Shown here one piece after another: positions 46,276-52,639 of a stretch of DNA of 64,000 nt; within the stretch, counting starts at the first letter, position 1; every line of letters starts with the position of its first letter. The DNA is from Campylobacteraceae bacterium (GTDB taxonomy: Bacteria > Campylobacterota > Campylobacteria > Campylobacterales > Campylobacteraceae). The position numbers and the translations under genes were made by a program. The notes under the pieces are model-generated. The model saw only the letters and a list, made by a program, of their open reading frames with translations. It made no database searches and was not told the origin of the DNA. Location: contig JAISGD010000001.1 in assembly GCA_031263195.1 (NCBI GenBank), positions 62,001 through 126,000 on the forward strand, read 5' to 3'.

Positions 46276-48123
46276 ATGGCAAACAAAGCTACTAAATATA
46301 CACTAATAAAACAAAAGCAATATCTGAAATGTCTGCCGTTTGAAGAAACAAAGGATTTTGAACGCGCAAAAAGAGGGTTGATCGCTAAGGCTAAAAATTT
46401 GGTCATAAAAAACGATAACGGACGAATCGTATGGAAGTTAAACGAGCTGGAAAATCTTATGCAAGGCGACACTCCCGACACGGTAAATCCAAGTTTATGG
46501 CGGCATGAAAAGCTAAATACAATAGCGGGGCTTTTTGAAGTTACGCACGGTATTTATCAAATTCGCGGTTTTGATCTGGCAAATCTTACGCTGATTAAAT
46601 CGCAAAACGGCTATATCGCTATTGATCCGCTTGGTTGCGTTGAGACAGCAAAAGCGGCGATTAAGTTTGCTGAAAAGAGTTTAGGCAATATAAAAATCAC
46701 CGCAATCGTCGTTACGCATAGTCATTGGGATCATTTTGGTGGAGTCGGCGCGCTGACAAATCAAACAGATATAGACAACGGCGCTGTGCCGCTTATAGTT
46801 CCCGATAAATTTACGCAAGAGCTTGTAAGTGAAAATATCTTTGTCGGCGCGGCTATGAATCGCAGATCTGTTTATCAATTTGGCAATGCGCTTAAAACAG
46901 ACGCCAAAGGCTTTATTGGAAGCGGACTTGGCAAAGGCACAAGTACTGGCATTTCTATGCCGTTAAAGCCAAATACTATCATCAAAAATAAAGTCGAAGA
47001 GTTTGCGATTGACGGCGTAAAGTTCGTCTTTTTACTTACGCCTGATGCGGAAGCTCCTTCGGAGATGTGTTTTTATCTGCCTGATTTTAGCGTTTTGTGC
47101 GCAGCGGAGATAGTAACGTATCATCAACATAATATATTACCGTTTCGCGGCGCGCAGGCTCGATCGGCGTTATCATGGTCAAAACATATCGATGATATGC
47201 TATATCTTTTTGGCGACAAGAGCGAGGCGCTTATTTTAACGCACCATTTTCCGCAGTGGGGTACGCAAAATATAATAAAATTACTTACCGAACAGCGCGA
47301 TCTATATAAATATATAAACGATCAAACCGTAAGGCTGGCAAATAAAGGCTATACTCCAAGCGAAATTGCCGAATCCTTAGAACTTCCCAACTCTCTTGCT
47401 AAGCTCTGGCATGCACGCGGCTATTACGGGCATCTAAACCATAATGTCAAAGCTACATATCAACGTTATTTGGGCTGGTTTGATTGCAACCCTTCAAACC
47501 TAAATCCACTACCTCCCGAAGAGAGTGGAAGAAAATTTGTCGAGTTGATGGGCGGAGTAAACGAAGTCATACAAAAAGCAAAAAAACTCTATGAAAACGG
47601 CGAATATCGATTTTCGGCGCAGGTTCTAAATCACATCATTTTCGGCTATCCGCAAAATGAGGCTGCAAAAGAGCTTTTAGCATGCGCGTATGAACAGCTT
47701 GGCTATCAAGCAGAAAGCGCAACTTGGCGCAACTTATATCTAACGGGCGCATTGGAATTAAGAGACGGTACGAAAAAACATGGCGGACTAAGCACATTGG
47801 GAAAAGAAATTATCAAATTTGTGCCGATCGGAATGTTATTTGACTATATCGCCGTTTGGTTAAACCCGCAAAATGCGGATGGCAAAACGATTGTTATTAA
47901 CATCTCTATTGACAATGAGATATGGAATGTTCGCCTCTCTAACAGCGTTATAAGCGCGCAAAAGGGCGCAAGTAACCCAGCGCAAGCGTCATATGCGCTT
48001 GTTCGCGACGAATTAAACGCTATCGCGATTACTTTTGAAGCGCCCAAATATCCGCTGTTTAATGAGATACTCTCGTTTCTTGATCGTCCAACGTCAAATG
48101 ATTTTGATATAGTTGCACCATAA
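46276..48123 (+). CDS. Alkyl/aryl sulfatase (SdsA1/BDS1-type metallo-beta-lactamase fold)
   Basis: 615 residues. Metallo-beta-lactamase-fold zinc site THSHWDHFGG near 151-160; EAPSEMCFYLPDF, AAEIVTYHQHN and ILTHHFPQWG supply further ligands; DQTVRLANKGYTPSEIAE and QRYLGWFDCNP mark the dimerisation domain; a C-terminal SCP2-like lipid-binding domain spans about 495-615. The family hydrolyses alkyl sulfates such as SDS to alcohol and sulfate. There is no signal peptide, unlike secreted SdsA1, so it is probably cytoplasmic. Base use is slightly more GC-rich than neighbours and the gene stands alone, which suggests acquisition. Confidence 0.88.
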   Translation: MANKATKYTLIKQKQYLKCLPFEETKDFERAKRGLIAKAKNLVIKNDNGRIVWKLNELENLMQGDTPDTVNPSLWRHEKLNTIAGLFEVTHGIYQIRGFDLANLTLIKSQNGYIAIDPLGCVETAKAAIKFAEKSLGNIKITAIVVTHSHWDHFGGVGALTNQTDIDNGAVPLIVPDKFTQELVSENIFVGAAMNRRSVYQFGNALKTDAKGFIGSGLGKGTSTGISMPLKPNTIIKNKVEEFAIDGVKFVFLLTPDAEAPSEMCFYLPDFSVLCAAEIVTYHQHNILPFRGAQARSALSWSKHIDDMLYLFGDKSEALILTHHFPQWGTQNIIKLLTEQRDLYKYINDQTVRLANKGYTPSEIAESLELPNSLAKLWHARGYYGHLNHNVKATYQRYLGWFDCNPSNLNPLPPEESGRKFVELMGGVNEVIQKAKKLYENGEYRFSAQVLNHIIFGYPQNEAAKELLACAYEQLGYQAESATWRNLYLTGALELRDGTKKHGGLSTLGKEIIKFVPIGMLFDYIAVWLNPQNADGKTIVINISIDNEIWNVRLSNSVISAQKGASNPAQASYALVRDELNAIAITFEAPKYPLFNEILSFLDRPTSNDFDIVAP

Positions 48124-48451: not shown

Positions 48452-48457
48452 TATAAT
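48452..48457 (+). promoter_or_regulatory. -10 element of the P-type ATPase operon
   Basis: TATAAT ending 16 bases before the first start codon. Transcription would begin near 48464, leaving only about 10 bases of leader and part of the AAAGG at 48463-48467, so the first message may be almost leaderless. Confidence 0.45.
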
Positions 48458-48473: not shown

Positions 48474-48809
48474 ATGACAACAATCTCTGAGCAGCGAGTT
48501 TTAGAGCTATCGCAGTATTTTACTATCCTGCATCATACCAAAGGACGTATCAGACTTGCTATAAATCCGAATATTAAAAAAATACTAAAAGAGTATAAAA
48601 CACTCTCTATAGATAAAGCAAAAGAATTTATCAAAAAGATTGACGGGATAAAAGAGTTTAAATTTATCGCTCTTTTGGGAACTGTAACGATTATTTACGA
48701 CAGCGATATTTTGAACGCGCAATTAATAGAAGACTTTATAAACGGTAAAAATATGAAACAGATAACAGAATTTATAAATACATTTATATTCAATATTACA
48801 GGAGGATAA
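48474..48809 (+). CDS. HMA-like small protein without CxxC
   Basis: First gene of a five-gene operon. The 111-residue protein looks like a ferredoxin-like HMA fold (HHTKGRIRLAI strand near 20-30, helix, then IKEFKFIALLGTVTIIYDSD strands and LIEDFI helix) but has no Cys at all, so it cannot bind metal as CxxC chaperones do. The H-x-x-G-R-x-R-L strand pattern recurs at the start of the ATPase in the same operon. It is cytoplasmic, with no signal or membrane segment. The role is unknown; partner or regulator of the ATPase by position. Confidence 0.7.
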   Translation: MTTISEQRVLELSQYFTILHHTKGRIRLAINPNIKKILKEYKTLSIDKAKEFIKKIDGIKEFKFIALLGTVTIIYDSDILNAQLIEDFINGKNMKQITEFINTFIFNITGG

Positions 48810-48811
48810 AT

Positions 48812-49060
48812 ATGGCGTTACCTTTTTTTGTAGCAGGTCTTGCTGTAGGCGGACTTGCCATAGTGGCTTTCAACAATAGGACAAAAATAGCCGATGAATT
48901 TCAAAAAGGCGTAAAACAAGCTAAAAAAATAGCTCGTAAAGAGTTGGATGAGGCTTTTAATTTTGCTGCAAAAGTTAAACAGGAATTAAAACCGCAAAAA
49001 CCAAAGCGCACGAGAAGCAAAAAGAAGAAACCAGAGGAAGAGAACAAAAATGCCTCTTGA
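48812..49060 (+). CDS. Small glycine-zipper membrane protein with basic tail
   Basis: 82 residues. One N-terminal membrane helix of glycine-zipper type (PFFVAGLAVGGLAIVAFN, about 4-21) is followed by an amphipathic helix (KIADEFQKGVKQAKKIARKEL) and a very basic, Pro- and Lys-rich C-terminus (KPKRTRSKKKKPEEE). GGAGG sits seven bases before the ATG. YtxH-like proteins have this layout. It is separated by 2 bases from the HMA-like gene and overlaps the next by 11 bases. Confidence 0.7.
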   Translation: MALPFFVAGLAVGGLAIVAFNNRTKIADEFQKGVKQAKKIARKELDEAFNFAAKVKQELKPQKPKRTRSKKKKPEEENKNAS

Positions 49061-49580
49061 TACCGGCGCTCCGCGTTCTGTAATGGGACATTTCATAAGC
49101 GCTTTGGCCGCAAGCGGAGCTATGTCCGCAAATGTTCACAAAAAACGCAAAGTCTTTAAAAAGATTTTTCAAGCCGCTATAGCGGCAGCGAGTGCAATTG
49201 CGACGGCAAATAATATCGGCGAAGGCAAATACACAAATGCGGCGGGCTCTTTATGCGTAGGTGCAGGAGGAGTCTATATACTTGAAAAATTCTTTAAAAA
49301 GGTAAAAAAAATGGGCAAAAAAAATAAAAAAACAGGTAAAAAACAGAAAAATACCAAAAACGGTTCATCTTTATTGGATACAAATTTTGGTTTCACCGGC
49401 GGAGATTTTGTAGTCGGAGCATTGATAGGCGCAGCCGTAACTTACGTTTTAACTAACGAAAAGGCGAGCACGGCGCTTTTAAAAACGGTAGCTAAGGGAA
49501 CAAACTTTTTGCAAGCTGGCTTTGAAGAACTAAAAGAGCGTTTTGAGGATGCTAAAGCCGAAGCGCAGATAAAGAGCTAA
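49050..49580 (+). CDS. Uncharacterised protein with two glycine-zipper helices and a Lys-rich loop
   Basis: 176 residues, not recognised. A first small-residue helix pair lies at about 42-52 and 65-83 (AAIAAASAIATA, AAGSLCVGAGGVYIL), then a Lys/Asn-rich loop at about 85-110 (FFKKVKKMGKKNKKTGKK), then a second glycine-zipper helix at about 123-140 (GGDFVVGALIGAAVTYVL) and an amphipathic C-terminal helix. The C-terminal half resembles YtxH-type proteins and the upstream 82-residue protein. It overlaps its upstream neighbour by 11 bases and precedes the ATPase by 2. Confidence 0.65.
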   Translation: MPLDTGAPRSVMGHFISALAASGAMSANVHKKRKVFKKIFQAAIAAASAIATANNIGEGKYTNAAGSLCVGAGGVYILEKFFKKVKKMGKKNKKTGKKQKNTKNGSSLLDTNFGFTGGDFVVGALIGAAVTYVLTNEKASTALLKTVAKGTNFLQAGFEELKERFEDAKAEAQIKS

Positions 49581-49582
49581 AT

Positions 49583-51676
49583 TTGAGCCGCATTTTTCTA
49601 AAACATCAAAGTCCTCTAAGAAGGCGTTACGGCTCTTTTGATATAAACAGTAAGTGCGATACTGACGCGCTTACTATACGACTTGAGAGTTTAAACGGCG
49701 TAAAAAGAGCGAAAGTAAACGATAAAGCGCGTACTTTTACGCTCTATTCGGACGGATCGTGGGATGTGAAGAGTTTAGAAAAAGAGCTTTCAAAAATAGA
49801 TTTTGGGTCTTTCGCAAATTCAAATAAAACCTCAAAAAACAGGCTAAATACCAACGAACCCGATATGTCGGGACTTTTACGCTCTATTGCCGCTTTAGCT
49901 TTAACGCCTGTAAGCTCGAACAATGGCGTAAAATTTACCATCTCCGCTGTCGGTTGCGCTCCGCTGTTAGTTAGAGGGATTGACGATTTGATAAAAAACG
50001 GTCTTACGTCAAGAGTATTGGAAGCTATGGCTGTTAGCGTGTCGCTCGCGAGAAAGGACTATACTGCCGCTAACAGCACTAACGCGCTTTTAGAACTTGG
50101 AGAATACATAGAGGAGACTACCGCTCAAAAAAGCGACGATTTGGTTAAAGAACTTGGAAAACCGAATGTAGATAAAGTTTGGGTTGAGGAGATGGTTGAA
50201 AGTCAAAAAGTTTTAAAACAGATATCTTCACATTTGGTTAAAGTTGGAGATATAGTCGTGATAGGCGCGGGAGAAACGGTAGCCGTAGACGGACATGTGA
50301 TAGCGGGCGAAGCTATGGTAAATCAAGCCTCTATGACAGGGGAAAGCGAACCGATTAAAAAAGAGCGCGGCGATAGGATAATGTCCGGCGTTATCGTAAA
50401 AGAGGGGCAAATAAAAATATGGGCGGAGCAAGTAGGCGACAATACCGCGACAGCCAGAATTAAACACTATATCCTAAGTTCTCTTGAAGAAAAATCCGCC
50501 ATAGGATTAAAAGCTTCCAAATTAGCCGACAAATTAGTTCCCGTTACTTTGGGATTATCGGCGCTATCGTATCTTGTCACGCAAAATATGCAAAATGTAG
50601 CTTCTGTATTGCAAGCTGATTACTCTTGCGCTCTTAGACTGGCTACTCCGGTAGCGTTTAAGTCCGCTATAGCGCAAGCGGGCAAAAACGGCATTTTGGT
50701 AAAAGGCGCGAAAGTCCTTGAGGCGCTTTCGTCTGCCGATACTTTTGTTTTTGATAAAACCGGAACTTTGACATACGGCGAACTTGAAGTTATCTCAGTT
50801 ACTTCGTTTGATAAAAATTGGACTAAAGAGGAGATTTTAAATCTAACGGCTAGTACGGAAGAACACTATTTTCATCCTGTGGCAGAAGCGGTGGTAAAAG
50901 CCGCCAAAAAGCTTGGTTTTATACATATGCATCATGAAGAAGTTGAGTTTATAGTTGCGCATGGGGTTAAAACCGTAGTCTCGAACAAAGACGTCACGAT
51001 AGGAAGCCGACACTTTTTGGAAGACGATGAAAGAATAAACTTTAAAGAGTACGAAAACGAAATCAACAAAAGTTTAGAAGAGGGAAAAACGATACTTTAC
51101 GTAGGATACGACGGTAAACTTTTGGGTATGATAGAGATGTTTGACAAAGTAAGGCAAAATGCGAAAGACGTCATTGAGAGATTAAAAACTTTAGGAGCGA
51201 AAAAGATAGTTATGCTAACGGGCGACGTTAGTTCGCGCGCGAAAGCCATAGGAGAAGAGTTGGGGATTGATGAAGTATACGCCAATATGCTTCCGCGCTC
51301 AAAAGCTAAAATCATTAACGAACTAAAAAGCAAAGGTTCAAAAGTAGTATTTGTAGGAGACGGCATAAACGACGCGCCAGCTCTTATGAGCGCCGATGTG
51401 GGAATTAGTATGTTTAAGGGTGCTGATATAACAAAAGCGACAGCGGACATAAGTCTTATGAAAGACGATATCGAGGCTTTAACGCAGATAAAAACATTGG
51501 CAAACAAAGCTATCGAGAGAATTCATAAAAATTTCAATACCACAGTAGGCGTAAACAGCGCGATTTTACTTGGCGCGAGTACCGGGGTTTTTACGCCTAT
51601 AATTACGGCGGTATTGCACAACAGCACAACAATCTCGCTTCTTTTAAATTCAATGAAAAAACTTAAAATGAGTTAA
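49583..51676 (+). CDS. P1B-type heavy-metal P-type ATPase with SCA motif (CtpC-like)
   Basis: 697 residues from a TTG start. A degenerate N-terminal HMA-like domain without CxxC (about 1-75) is followed by three hydrophobic segments (96-112, 117-132, 141-156), the actuator domain with MTGES at 251-255, two helices (318-334 and 339-360), the P-domain with DKTGT at 391-395, HP at 431-432, GDGINDAP at 592-599, and C-terminal helices. The helix-6 motif is Ser-Cys-Ala-Leu-Arg (DYSCALRLATP, 346-356) in place of CPC/CPH/SPC, resembling mycobacterial CtpC (Zn/Mn exporters) as I recall it. A His cluster IHMHHEE lies near 447-453. The transported ion is not predictable with certainty. Confidence 0.85.
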   Translation: MSRIFLKHQSPLRRRYGSFDINSKCDTDALTIRLESLNGVKRAKVNDKARTFTLYSDGSWDVKSLEKELSKIDFGSFANSNKTSKNRLNTNEPDMSGLLRSIAALALTPVSSNNGVKFTISAVGCAPLLVRGIDDLIKNGLTSRVLEAMAVSVSLARKDYTAANSTNALLELGEYIEETTAQKSDDLVKELGKPNVDKVWVEEMVESQKVLKQISSHLVKVGDIVVIGAGETVAVDGHVIAGEAMVNQASMTGESEPIKKERGDRIMSGVIVKEGQIKIWAEQVGDNTATARIKHYILSSLEEKSAIGLKASKLADKLVPVTLGLSALSYLVTQNMQNVASVLQADYSCALRLATPVAFKSAIAQAGKNGILVKGAKVLEALSSADTFVFDKTGTLTYGELEVISVTSFDKNWTKEEILNLTASTEEHYFHPVAEAVVKAAKKLGFIHMHHEEVEFIVAHGVKTVVSNKDVTIGSRHFLEDDERINFKEYENEINKSLEEGKTILYVGYDGKLLGMIEMFDKVRQNAKDVIERLKTLGAKKIVMLTGDVSSRAKAIGEELGIDEVYANMLPRSKAKIINELKSKGSKVVFVGDGINDAPALMSADVGISMFKGADITKATADISLMKDDIEALTQIKTLANKAIERIHKNFNTTVGVNSAILLGASTGVFTPIITAVLHNSTTISLLLNSMKKLKMS

Positions 51677-51677
51677 A

Positions 51678-51905
51678 ATGACAAAAATGCAAACTAAAAA
51701 CAGTTTAAGAGCAAAACAAGAGATAGCAAAAGTCGGCATGACGGCGTCTTTGGGTATTTTAACCATAAGCGCGTTTATGCTAAAAAACAGAGCCGCTAAA
51801 AAACTGCATGTAACGGCAGGCGTCGCGCTTATAGGATTTTCTTATTGGCACTATAAACTAAATCAACCGCAAAAAGTAGAACAAAGTAAAAAACAAACCG
51901 TTTAA
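51678..51905 (+). CDS. Small hairpin membrane protein at the end of the ATPase operon
   Basis: 75 residues. Two hydrophobic helices (about 19-34, MTASLGILTISAFMLK; about 44-58, VTAGVALIGFSYWHY) joined by a short basic turn, with basic flanks inside the cell. A His in each of LHVTAG and YWHYKLN could face each other. It starts one base after the ATPase stop and closes the operon. Function unknown; possibly a small subunit or stabiliser of the ATPase. Confidence 0.65.
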   Translation: MTKMQTKNSLRAKQEIAKVGMTASLGILTISAFMLKNRAAKKLHVTAGVALIGFSYWHYKLNQPQKVEQSKKQTV

Positions 51906-52465
51906 AACTAGCTTCCAAACTTCAAATAAATTTTATGGTTTAATGTGGACAATTCGCCAAAAATTTAAGAATTATCGTTATTTTTTTTGGATTTCTAACC
52001 AAAAGCCGTTTTACGAGTGTTTTTTGTAAAACTAACCGTCGATTTTGCCAATACAAAATATACGTAGTAAAATTGACAAATTCTTTCTATTCATAAAGCG
52101 GCATAGTAATCAATAAAACGCCAAATGCTAAACCGCATTTTTATATGTTTCGTCATCGTGAACGAGAAGCGACAATCTAAAGTGTGAAATATTTTACATG
52201 TAAAAGCTCGAAAAGAGTGTGCGAAACCTGCATGTAAATGTTTACATGTAAAAGTTTAAGGAACAAAACAACATCGCATTTAATATAAAAAATAAGACAT
52301 AACAAGCTCTTACATGTAAGAGCTTGAGAAGCTAATATGAATAATAAAAGGCTACTTTATTCTTGCAAAAAACTAACATGTAAGAGCTGAAAACAATTAT
52401 TGTGTTTAAATTCTTCATTTGTTTCTTTTGTGCGAAGCATTAACATGCAAGAGTTAAAAACATGT
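51906..52465. repeat. Intergenic field of ACATGTAA palindromic repeats
   Basis: The stretch has no credible gene. It holds at least six elements built on (T)TACATGTAA, often continued as GAGCT: 14 bases at 52192-52205, 12 bases at 52241-52252, a 24-base perfect palindrome at 52303-52326, variants at 52374-52390 and 52441-52456, and a further copy at 52624-52639. Successive copies at 52244, 52312, 52376 and 52443 are 68, 64 and 67 bases apart. A partly similar CATGTAAATG lies at 52231. Confidence 0.6.
52303..52326. repeat. 24-base perfect palindrome in the repeat field
   Basis: Arms CAAGCTCTTACA and its complement. It is the longest of the ACATGTAA elements and could form a hairpin or bind a dimeric protein. 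Confidence 0.6.
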
Positions 52466-52626
52466 ATTTCAATACAACACTTGTTTCAGTTCAACAAAAA
52501 GGATAAGAGCGTTTGTCAAGGATTTTCTTTCATTTCAATACAATCCTTGTTTCAATTCAACAAAGCTTGGGCGGATGAACAAGCCGAAGCTTACTTATTT
52601 CAATGCAACACTTGCTTAAAAACGCT
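52466..52626 (-). CRISPR. CRISPR-like remnant: three repeats, two spacers, no cas genes
   Basis: Three 30-base units begin at 52466, 52532 and 52597 (periods 66 and 65). Units 1 and 2 agree at 27 of 30 positions; unit 3 matches over its first 21 bases with 2 changes and then decays. The units start ATTTCAAT on the plus strand, so on the minus strand they end in ATTGAAAT, the usual 3' end of type I/III repeats. Spacers are 36 and 35 bases. A weaker unit may start near 52404. The open frame across this stretch is a by-product of the repeat period. No cas gene is in the window. Confidence 0.5.
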
Positions 52627-52639
52627 TTACATGTAAAGC
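52624..52639. repeat. 16-base palindrome GCTTTACATGTAAAGC
   Basis: Perfect palindrome at the right end of the CRISPR-like remnant and 49 bases downstream of the GLUG lipoprotein stop. It is a member of the ACATGTAA family and could also act as a weak terminator for that gene. Confidence 0.5.

Follow-up and report, generated by a model that had tools for sequence, protein, structure and literature searches.

A five-gene P1B6-type ATPase operon of a Campylobacteraceae bacterium as a likely ferrosome (fez) gene cluster

What purpose does a metal-pumping ATPase serve when its gene is packed together with those of several small membrane proteins? The question is raised by an operon of a Campylobacteraceae bacterium (contig JAISGD010000001.1 of assembly GCA_031263195.1, positions 62,001 to 126,000 of the forward strand; this stretch of 64,000 nucleotides is referred to here as the window), in which five co-directional genes on the + strand encode an HMA_2 protein, a glycine-zipper protein, a fused 176-amino-acid (aa) protein, a P-type ATPase and a two-helix protein. 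A first-pass annotation gave the spacing of the genes as −11 to +2 bases, with which the open reading frame (ORF) coordinates agree (junctions of +2, −11, +2 and +1 bases), and proposed metal export for tolerance. Gene content and a near-exclusion of ferritin favour iron storage instead. We consider it likely that the five genes form a ferrosome (fez) cluster, whose products would, by the mechanism proposed below, form Fe(II)-storing sacs. The operon is probably its host's iron store, not a heavy-metal export pump, because the gene set matches the ferrosome set part for part and no ferritin or Dps gene is detectable in the genome. The iron substrate, heme binding, direction of transport and organelle formation are all things that we infer from homology, co-occurrence and the ferritin pattern.

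The ATPase matches the heavy-metal P1B model TIGR01525 at 473 bits, has an N-terminal HMA-like domain and retains intact DKTGT, GDGxND and HP motifs. Its M4 segment reads DYSCAL and its M6 segment HNSTT; the CPC in M4 that defines pumps of the P1B-1/P1B-2 type is absent. Two other P1B pumps of the same genome, aligned at the M4/M6 sites, have CPC and lack HN. In the alignment the combination of a DYSCAL-type M4 with HN[G/S]TT in M6 is shared by the Campylobacterota members and by the cluster ATPases of Azospirillum, Vibrio and Fusobacterium. FezB was reportedly termed a P1B-6 ATPase by Grant in 2022. As HN in transmembrane (TM) segment 6 is the mark of P1B6 ATPases (PMC9374683), the window ATPase was assigned to this type. 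Its matches to ADH and CoA_binding were judged spurious, and the Roseburia and Enterococcus plasmid matches are ordinary metal pumps without HN[G/S]TT and without small partners.

The two-helix protein recalls a known ferrosome part. FezC of Desulfovibrio magneticus is DUF4405-like, with cytochrome-like properties and a heme site predicted via a homodimer; in the same account FezB is a putative transporter of ferrous iron (PMC10979944). DUF4405 (PF14358) was matched by 21 of the 24 relatives of the window protein (best 1.7e-4), and alignment showed His44 and His58 to be invariant in all 24. The profile matches and the alignment support a family resemblance to the description of FezC, and the protein may bind heme. 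It had been held that none of the small proteins has obvious metal ligands; for the two-helix protein this fails, because it is DUF4405-like with two invariant His.

Nor are the small partners unrecognised, as they had been called. In profile searches the first protein, which does lack Cys as stated in the first-pass annotation, belongs to HMA_2 (PF19991, 35.1 bits; cut-off 30), and its HH..GR.R motif is conserved in 29 aligned relatives; the two-helix protein is DUF4405-like as described above; and the C-terminal part of the fused protein (fusC) is YtxH-like, with weak matches in 11 of 26 relatives. Two glycine-zipper proteins with Lys-rich tails had been reported, of which the 82-aa protein stands (one TM segment of pattern F..G...G, with F6, G9 and G13 invariant in 28 relatives, and a Lys-rich tail) and the 176-aa protein turns out to be a fusion of two genes. 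In most Campylobacterota fusN and fusC are two neighbouring genes. The fused form is carried by five other metagenome-assembled genomes (MAGs; L035, L036, L038, L040 and L043), which excludes a sequencing error. In the fused protein, Met88 (49311) lines up with the ancestral start codon of the separate fusC, and independent translation of the fusC part is therefore still possible. Two further families were tried and rejected: DUF5132, for the glycine-zipper proteins, matched only YtxH-like proteins of Azospirillum and Cereibacter, and weakly, and 'smalltalk'/DUF6486, for the fused protein, gave single-sequence matches below the cut-off.

The composition of the operon was followed through 298 genomes of the class (ATPase threshold E <= 1e-120; ferritin-like profile E < 1e-14). 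The fusC protein was found in 102 of the 298 genomes and the ATPase in exactly the same 102 (hereafter fez-positive), on the same contig and strand in every case, with a gap of −13 to 289 nt. The FezC-like profile matched in 99 genomes, all of them fez-positive, and 97 of these matches lay 1.75 kb or less from the cluster; in G007 and G117 the FezC-like gene is on a different contig. A ferritin-like profile matched in 95 genomes, again all fez-positive and all within 2.1 kb. A nominal chance figure for this co-occurrence is no real probability because the genomes are related. The proposal of one functional module whose small genes co-occur with the ATPase withstood its refutation test, the gene-neighbourhood counts (102/102).

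The five-gene extent is correct for the window itself; the fuller operon of relatives adds a ferritin-like gene and often one of the Fur family. The full order, [Fur family] – HMA_2 – ferritin-like – gz1 – fusN – fusC – ATPase – FezC-like, is seen in L037, L041, L042, L044, L045 and L048 and recurs, in varied form, in the majority of another 20 genomes (L051–L070). Fur-family genes (strong PF01475 match) lie beside the cluster in many relatives. In L052 a gene for an AGCS-type amino-acid symporter (L052:9531-10989) stands between the ATPase and FezC-like genes. A similar gap of 1.5 kb at this place is present in many genomes of genus g2. The ferritin-like protein, for which a match was absent in the first search of L055, L056, L061 and L062, gives Rubrerythrin matches in 13 of 24 members and DUF2202 matches in 9 of 24, and its C-terminal tail resembles a protein of the Cereibacter cluster (E 1e-4). 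Most members of the free-living type retain a Glu/ExxH/Glu/His pattern (E35, E62, H65, E106 and H140 in L044). The di-iron ligands are mostly lost in L041 (4419-5105), L042, L037 and L048, with E106 kept in 24/24, and this loss may have preceded that of the whole ferritin-like gene in the window lineage.

Iron storage in Campylobacterota is commonly attributed to ferritin and Dps. PF00210, which covers ferritin, bacterioferritin and Dps, had no match in the window genome or in the sampled congener G232, and 14 of 14 controls matched. Over the 298 genomes the PF00210 scores split into two groups, which we take to be classical ferritin and Dps (sampled sequences were assigned by motif). The classical-ferritin group is represented in 5 of the 102 fez-positive genomes versus 111 of the 196 fez-negative ones (Fisher p 6e-21, kinship ignored). 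Within genera the count was 0/11 fez-positive versus 4/6 fez-negative genomes in g8 and 0/3 versus 1/1 in g29; the mixed genera g4, g6, g13 and g25 have classical ferritin on neither side and are uninformative. Five fez-positive genomes have no PF00210 match of any kind. It seems to us an evenly balanced question whether in Campylobacterota fez takes ferritin's place, with the ferritin-like domain tethered to the ferrosome membrane by its glycine-rich hydrophobic C-terminal tail and since discarded by the window lineage.

Outside the phylum, plasmid-borne relatives of the ATPase point to Azospirillum (44–50% identity), Vibrio and Cereibacter. Azospirillum brasilense (L073) has six genes in a row, encoding an HMA–FezC fusion, an HMA_2 protein, a glycine-zipper protein (match strength 0.017, weak), fusN-like (4.9e-8) and fusC-like (7.9e-15) proteins and the ATPase. 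All component types of the window thus recur there, although the row opens with the FezC-like part, joined to an HMA domain, and fusN and fusC are separate. The FezC-like domain of the fusion also has two His 14 residues apart. The Cereibacter cluster is flanked by FeoA, siderophore receptor and sigma/FecR-family genes.

Shewanella putrefaciens is among the organisms with fez clusters. Six fez genes make ferrosomes in R. palustris CGA009 (PMC12016538), and ferrosomes of C. difficile depend on FezA and FezB, both of which Fur represses (PMC12574912); such control does not define every fez cluster. With the clusters of these three species and of D. magneticus the window cluster has in common a P1B6 ATPase, a DUF4405-like protein, small membrane proteins and a compact operon. 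It differs in the fusion of two small genes, in a FezC-like part encoded by a separate two-helix gene at the 3′ end and in having no Fur-family or ferritin-like gene, both of which other Campylobacterota add. By the mechanism that we propose, the FezB-type ATPase would take Fe(II) out of the cytosol and pump it into small sacs of membrane, to which the glycine-zipper and YtxH-like membrane proteins would give shape or a scaffold. Both the HMA_2 protein and the N-terminal HMA-like domain of the ATPase could handle or gate the metal, in a metal-handling or regulatory role, and the FezC-type protein might dimerise around heme and pass electrons across the sac membrane, setting the Fe(II)/Fe(III) balance, so that oxidation would store the iron and reduction would later release it. 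No report of ferrosomes in Campylobacterota was met in the literature searched; supplementary files of the first ferrosome papers (Grant 2022; Pi 2023) may list such clusters, and no priority is therefore claimed.

Several observations weigh against an assignment to fez. It was made from published descriptions of the Fez proteins, the nearest sequence proxy being the Azospirillum cluster, and the window two-helix protein reaches only 18.7 bits with DUF4405, under the Pfam cut-off of 26.7. DUF6110, the PacL-like family associated with P1B6 pumps, had no match among the cluster members. Fur-family and ferritin-like genes were not found at the window operon, nor any remnant of them in the window; another part of the genome does encode a Fur-family protein, 33% identical to the cluster-linked one. 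The ferritin exclusion is in part shared ancestry, because the genera are unevenly sampled. Even so, the FezC-like, HMA_2 and YtxH-like proteins of the cluster, with the ferritin-like and Fur-family genes of its relatives and the near-exclusion of ferritin, lead us to iron storage in ferrosomes.

The likeness to PacL and CtpC that the first-pass annotation had drawn is a sound one, as P1B6 ATPases are encoded together with small PacL-like membrane proteins, which lack a metal-binding motif, and the stability of CtpC requires PacL1 (PMC9374683); glycine motifs in the TM segment of PacL, moreover, matter for assembly (PMC13043812). What the PacL1–CtpC (DUF1490) and DUF6110–P1B6 pairs have in common with the window cluster is a P1B ATPase, with HN in TM6, whose gene lies with those of small, glycine-rich proteins of one TM segment. 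An export pump that confers tolerance by expelling a divalent metal into the periplasm, stabilised and clustered by such small proteins, is all the same unlikely here. It leaves the FezC-like protein, the ferritin-like partner and the near-exclusion of ferritin unexplained; CtpC has CPC in TM4 where the window ATPase has YSC; and the window cluster, unlike PacL-type systems, has no metal-binding tail and four to six partners, not one. Neither PF07371 (DUF1490) nor PF19605 (DUF6110) matched the window proteins or their relatives scanned singly, the relatives of the glycine-zipper proteins included, for which DUF6110 was tried and rejected. A DUF6110 search of 61 genomes and 14 controls gave zero matches anywhere and is uninformative alone because the controls gave no match either.

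Export of Fe(II) itself to the periplasm, against iron poisoning and in the manner of P1B4 pumps such as PfeT or FrvA, suits the Cereibacter neighbours and the Fur-family genes, and P1B4 Fe(II) exporters do exist (PMC10654040); we think it improbable, since the near-exclusion of ferritin suits storage better than efflux. Efflux of the P1B4 type is, moreover, not known to require more than the pump. That the window copy is decaying and no longer works is very improbable: ferritin-like and Fur-family genes are missing, two genes are fused and the di-iron ligands are already lost in the related L041, L042, L037 and L048, yet all five frames are intact with complete ATPase motifs, five other MAGs retain the fused form and no further store of the ferritin fold (PF00210) could be detected in the organism.

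Table 1. Coordinates of the operon and associated features in the window
Feature	Position	Strand	Basis
HMA_2 protein, 111 aa, Cys-free, HH..GR.R motif kept	48474..48809	+	Pfam PF19991 and alignment
Glycine-zipper protein, 82 aa, one TM, Lys-rich tail	48812..49060	+	Same operon position in relatives
Gene for fused 176-aa protein	49050..49580	+	ORF; relatives mostly have two genes here
fusN, N-terminal part of fused protein; small membrane gene standing alone in relatives	49050..49310	+	
fusC, C-terminal part of fused protein; YtxH-like gene standing alone in relatives	49311..49580	+	
P1B6-type (FezB-type) P-type ATPase, 697 aa	49583..51676	+	TIGR01525, 473 bits; M4/M6 signature
M4 motif DYSCAL (Cys349), where CPC would be	50621..50638	+	ATPase alignment
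M6 His679-Asn680, HN signature of P1B6 ATPases	51617..51622	+	Signature from PMC9374683
FezC-like two-helix protein, 75 aa, DUF4405-like	51678..51905	+	Profile and alignment; FezC description in PMC10979944
Invariant His44 and His58 of FezC-like protein, 14 residues apart	51807-51809 and 51849-51851	+	
Candidate TATAAT −10 element	48452..48457	+	Alignment of upstream regions
Likely recombination breakpoint region between two operon lineages	49290..49440	+	Conflicting trees of two halves

The window operon also appears to be of mixed descent. Between 48435 and about 49350 its nearest match is the fused-gene clade (for the most part 73–88% DNA identity, versus 40–67% to L041/L042), and from about 49380 onward it is L042 (85–94%). 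The protein trees conflict accordingly, placing the 5′ part within the fused-gene clade (support 94/99) and the 3′ part with L041 and L042 (95/99), and the breakpoint falls inside the fused gene. Recombination between two operon lineages is the likely cause. The mosaic might still be a chimeric assembly, although this would need two false joins because the gene upstream is again shared with L041.

This gene (46276-48123), directly upstream of the operon, encodes an alkyl-sulfatase-type metallo-beta-lactamase and has 81% DNA identity to that of L041; in L035, L038, L040 and L043 no such gene was observed ahead of the operon. The upstream alignment showed a block, ATTTTAATATTTT..TATAAT, 5′ of the operon that the window shares with these four. 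No Fur box is claimed upstream of the window operon from a by-eye look at the aligned upstream regions. Downstream, a 22-nt intergenic element occurs four times at 52194-52395 (start TTACATGTAA, palindromic; spacing 48–68 nt), followed by three 33-nt direct repeats at 52466-52629 (ATTTCAATACAACACTTGTTTCAGTTCAACAAA, degenerate in its last copy) at spacings of 66 and 65 nt, which look like a small CRISPR array remnant. The source genome is 1.79 Mb in size and 99.7% complete; at this locus it is most closely related to Campylobacteraceae MAGs, apparently from insect guts judging by their isolate codes.

If the cluster is indeed fez, a recently found organelle would be widespread in Campylobacterota, in 102 of 298 sampled species (about a third) and 20 genera, and iron sacs would be predicted in species that have no ferritin. 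The likely minimal parts of a ferrosome would be the pump, HMA_2, two to three glycine-zipper proteins and the FezC-like cytochrome, and a natural variant such as the window copy, in which two parts are fused and the ferritin-like one is absent, would help to tell which of them are essential.

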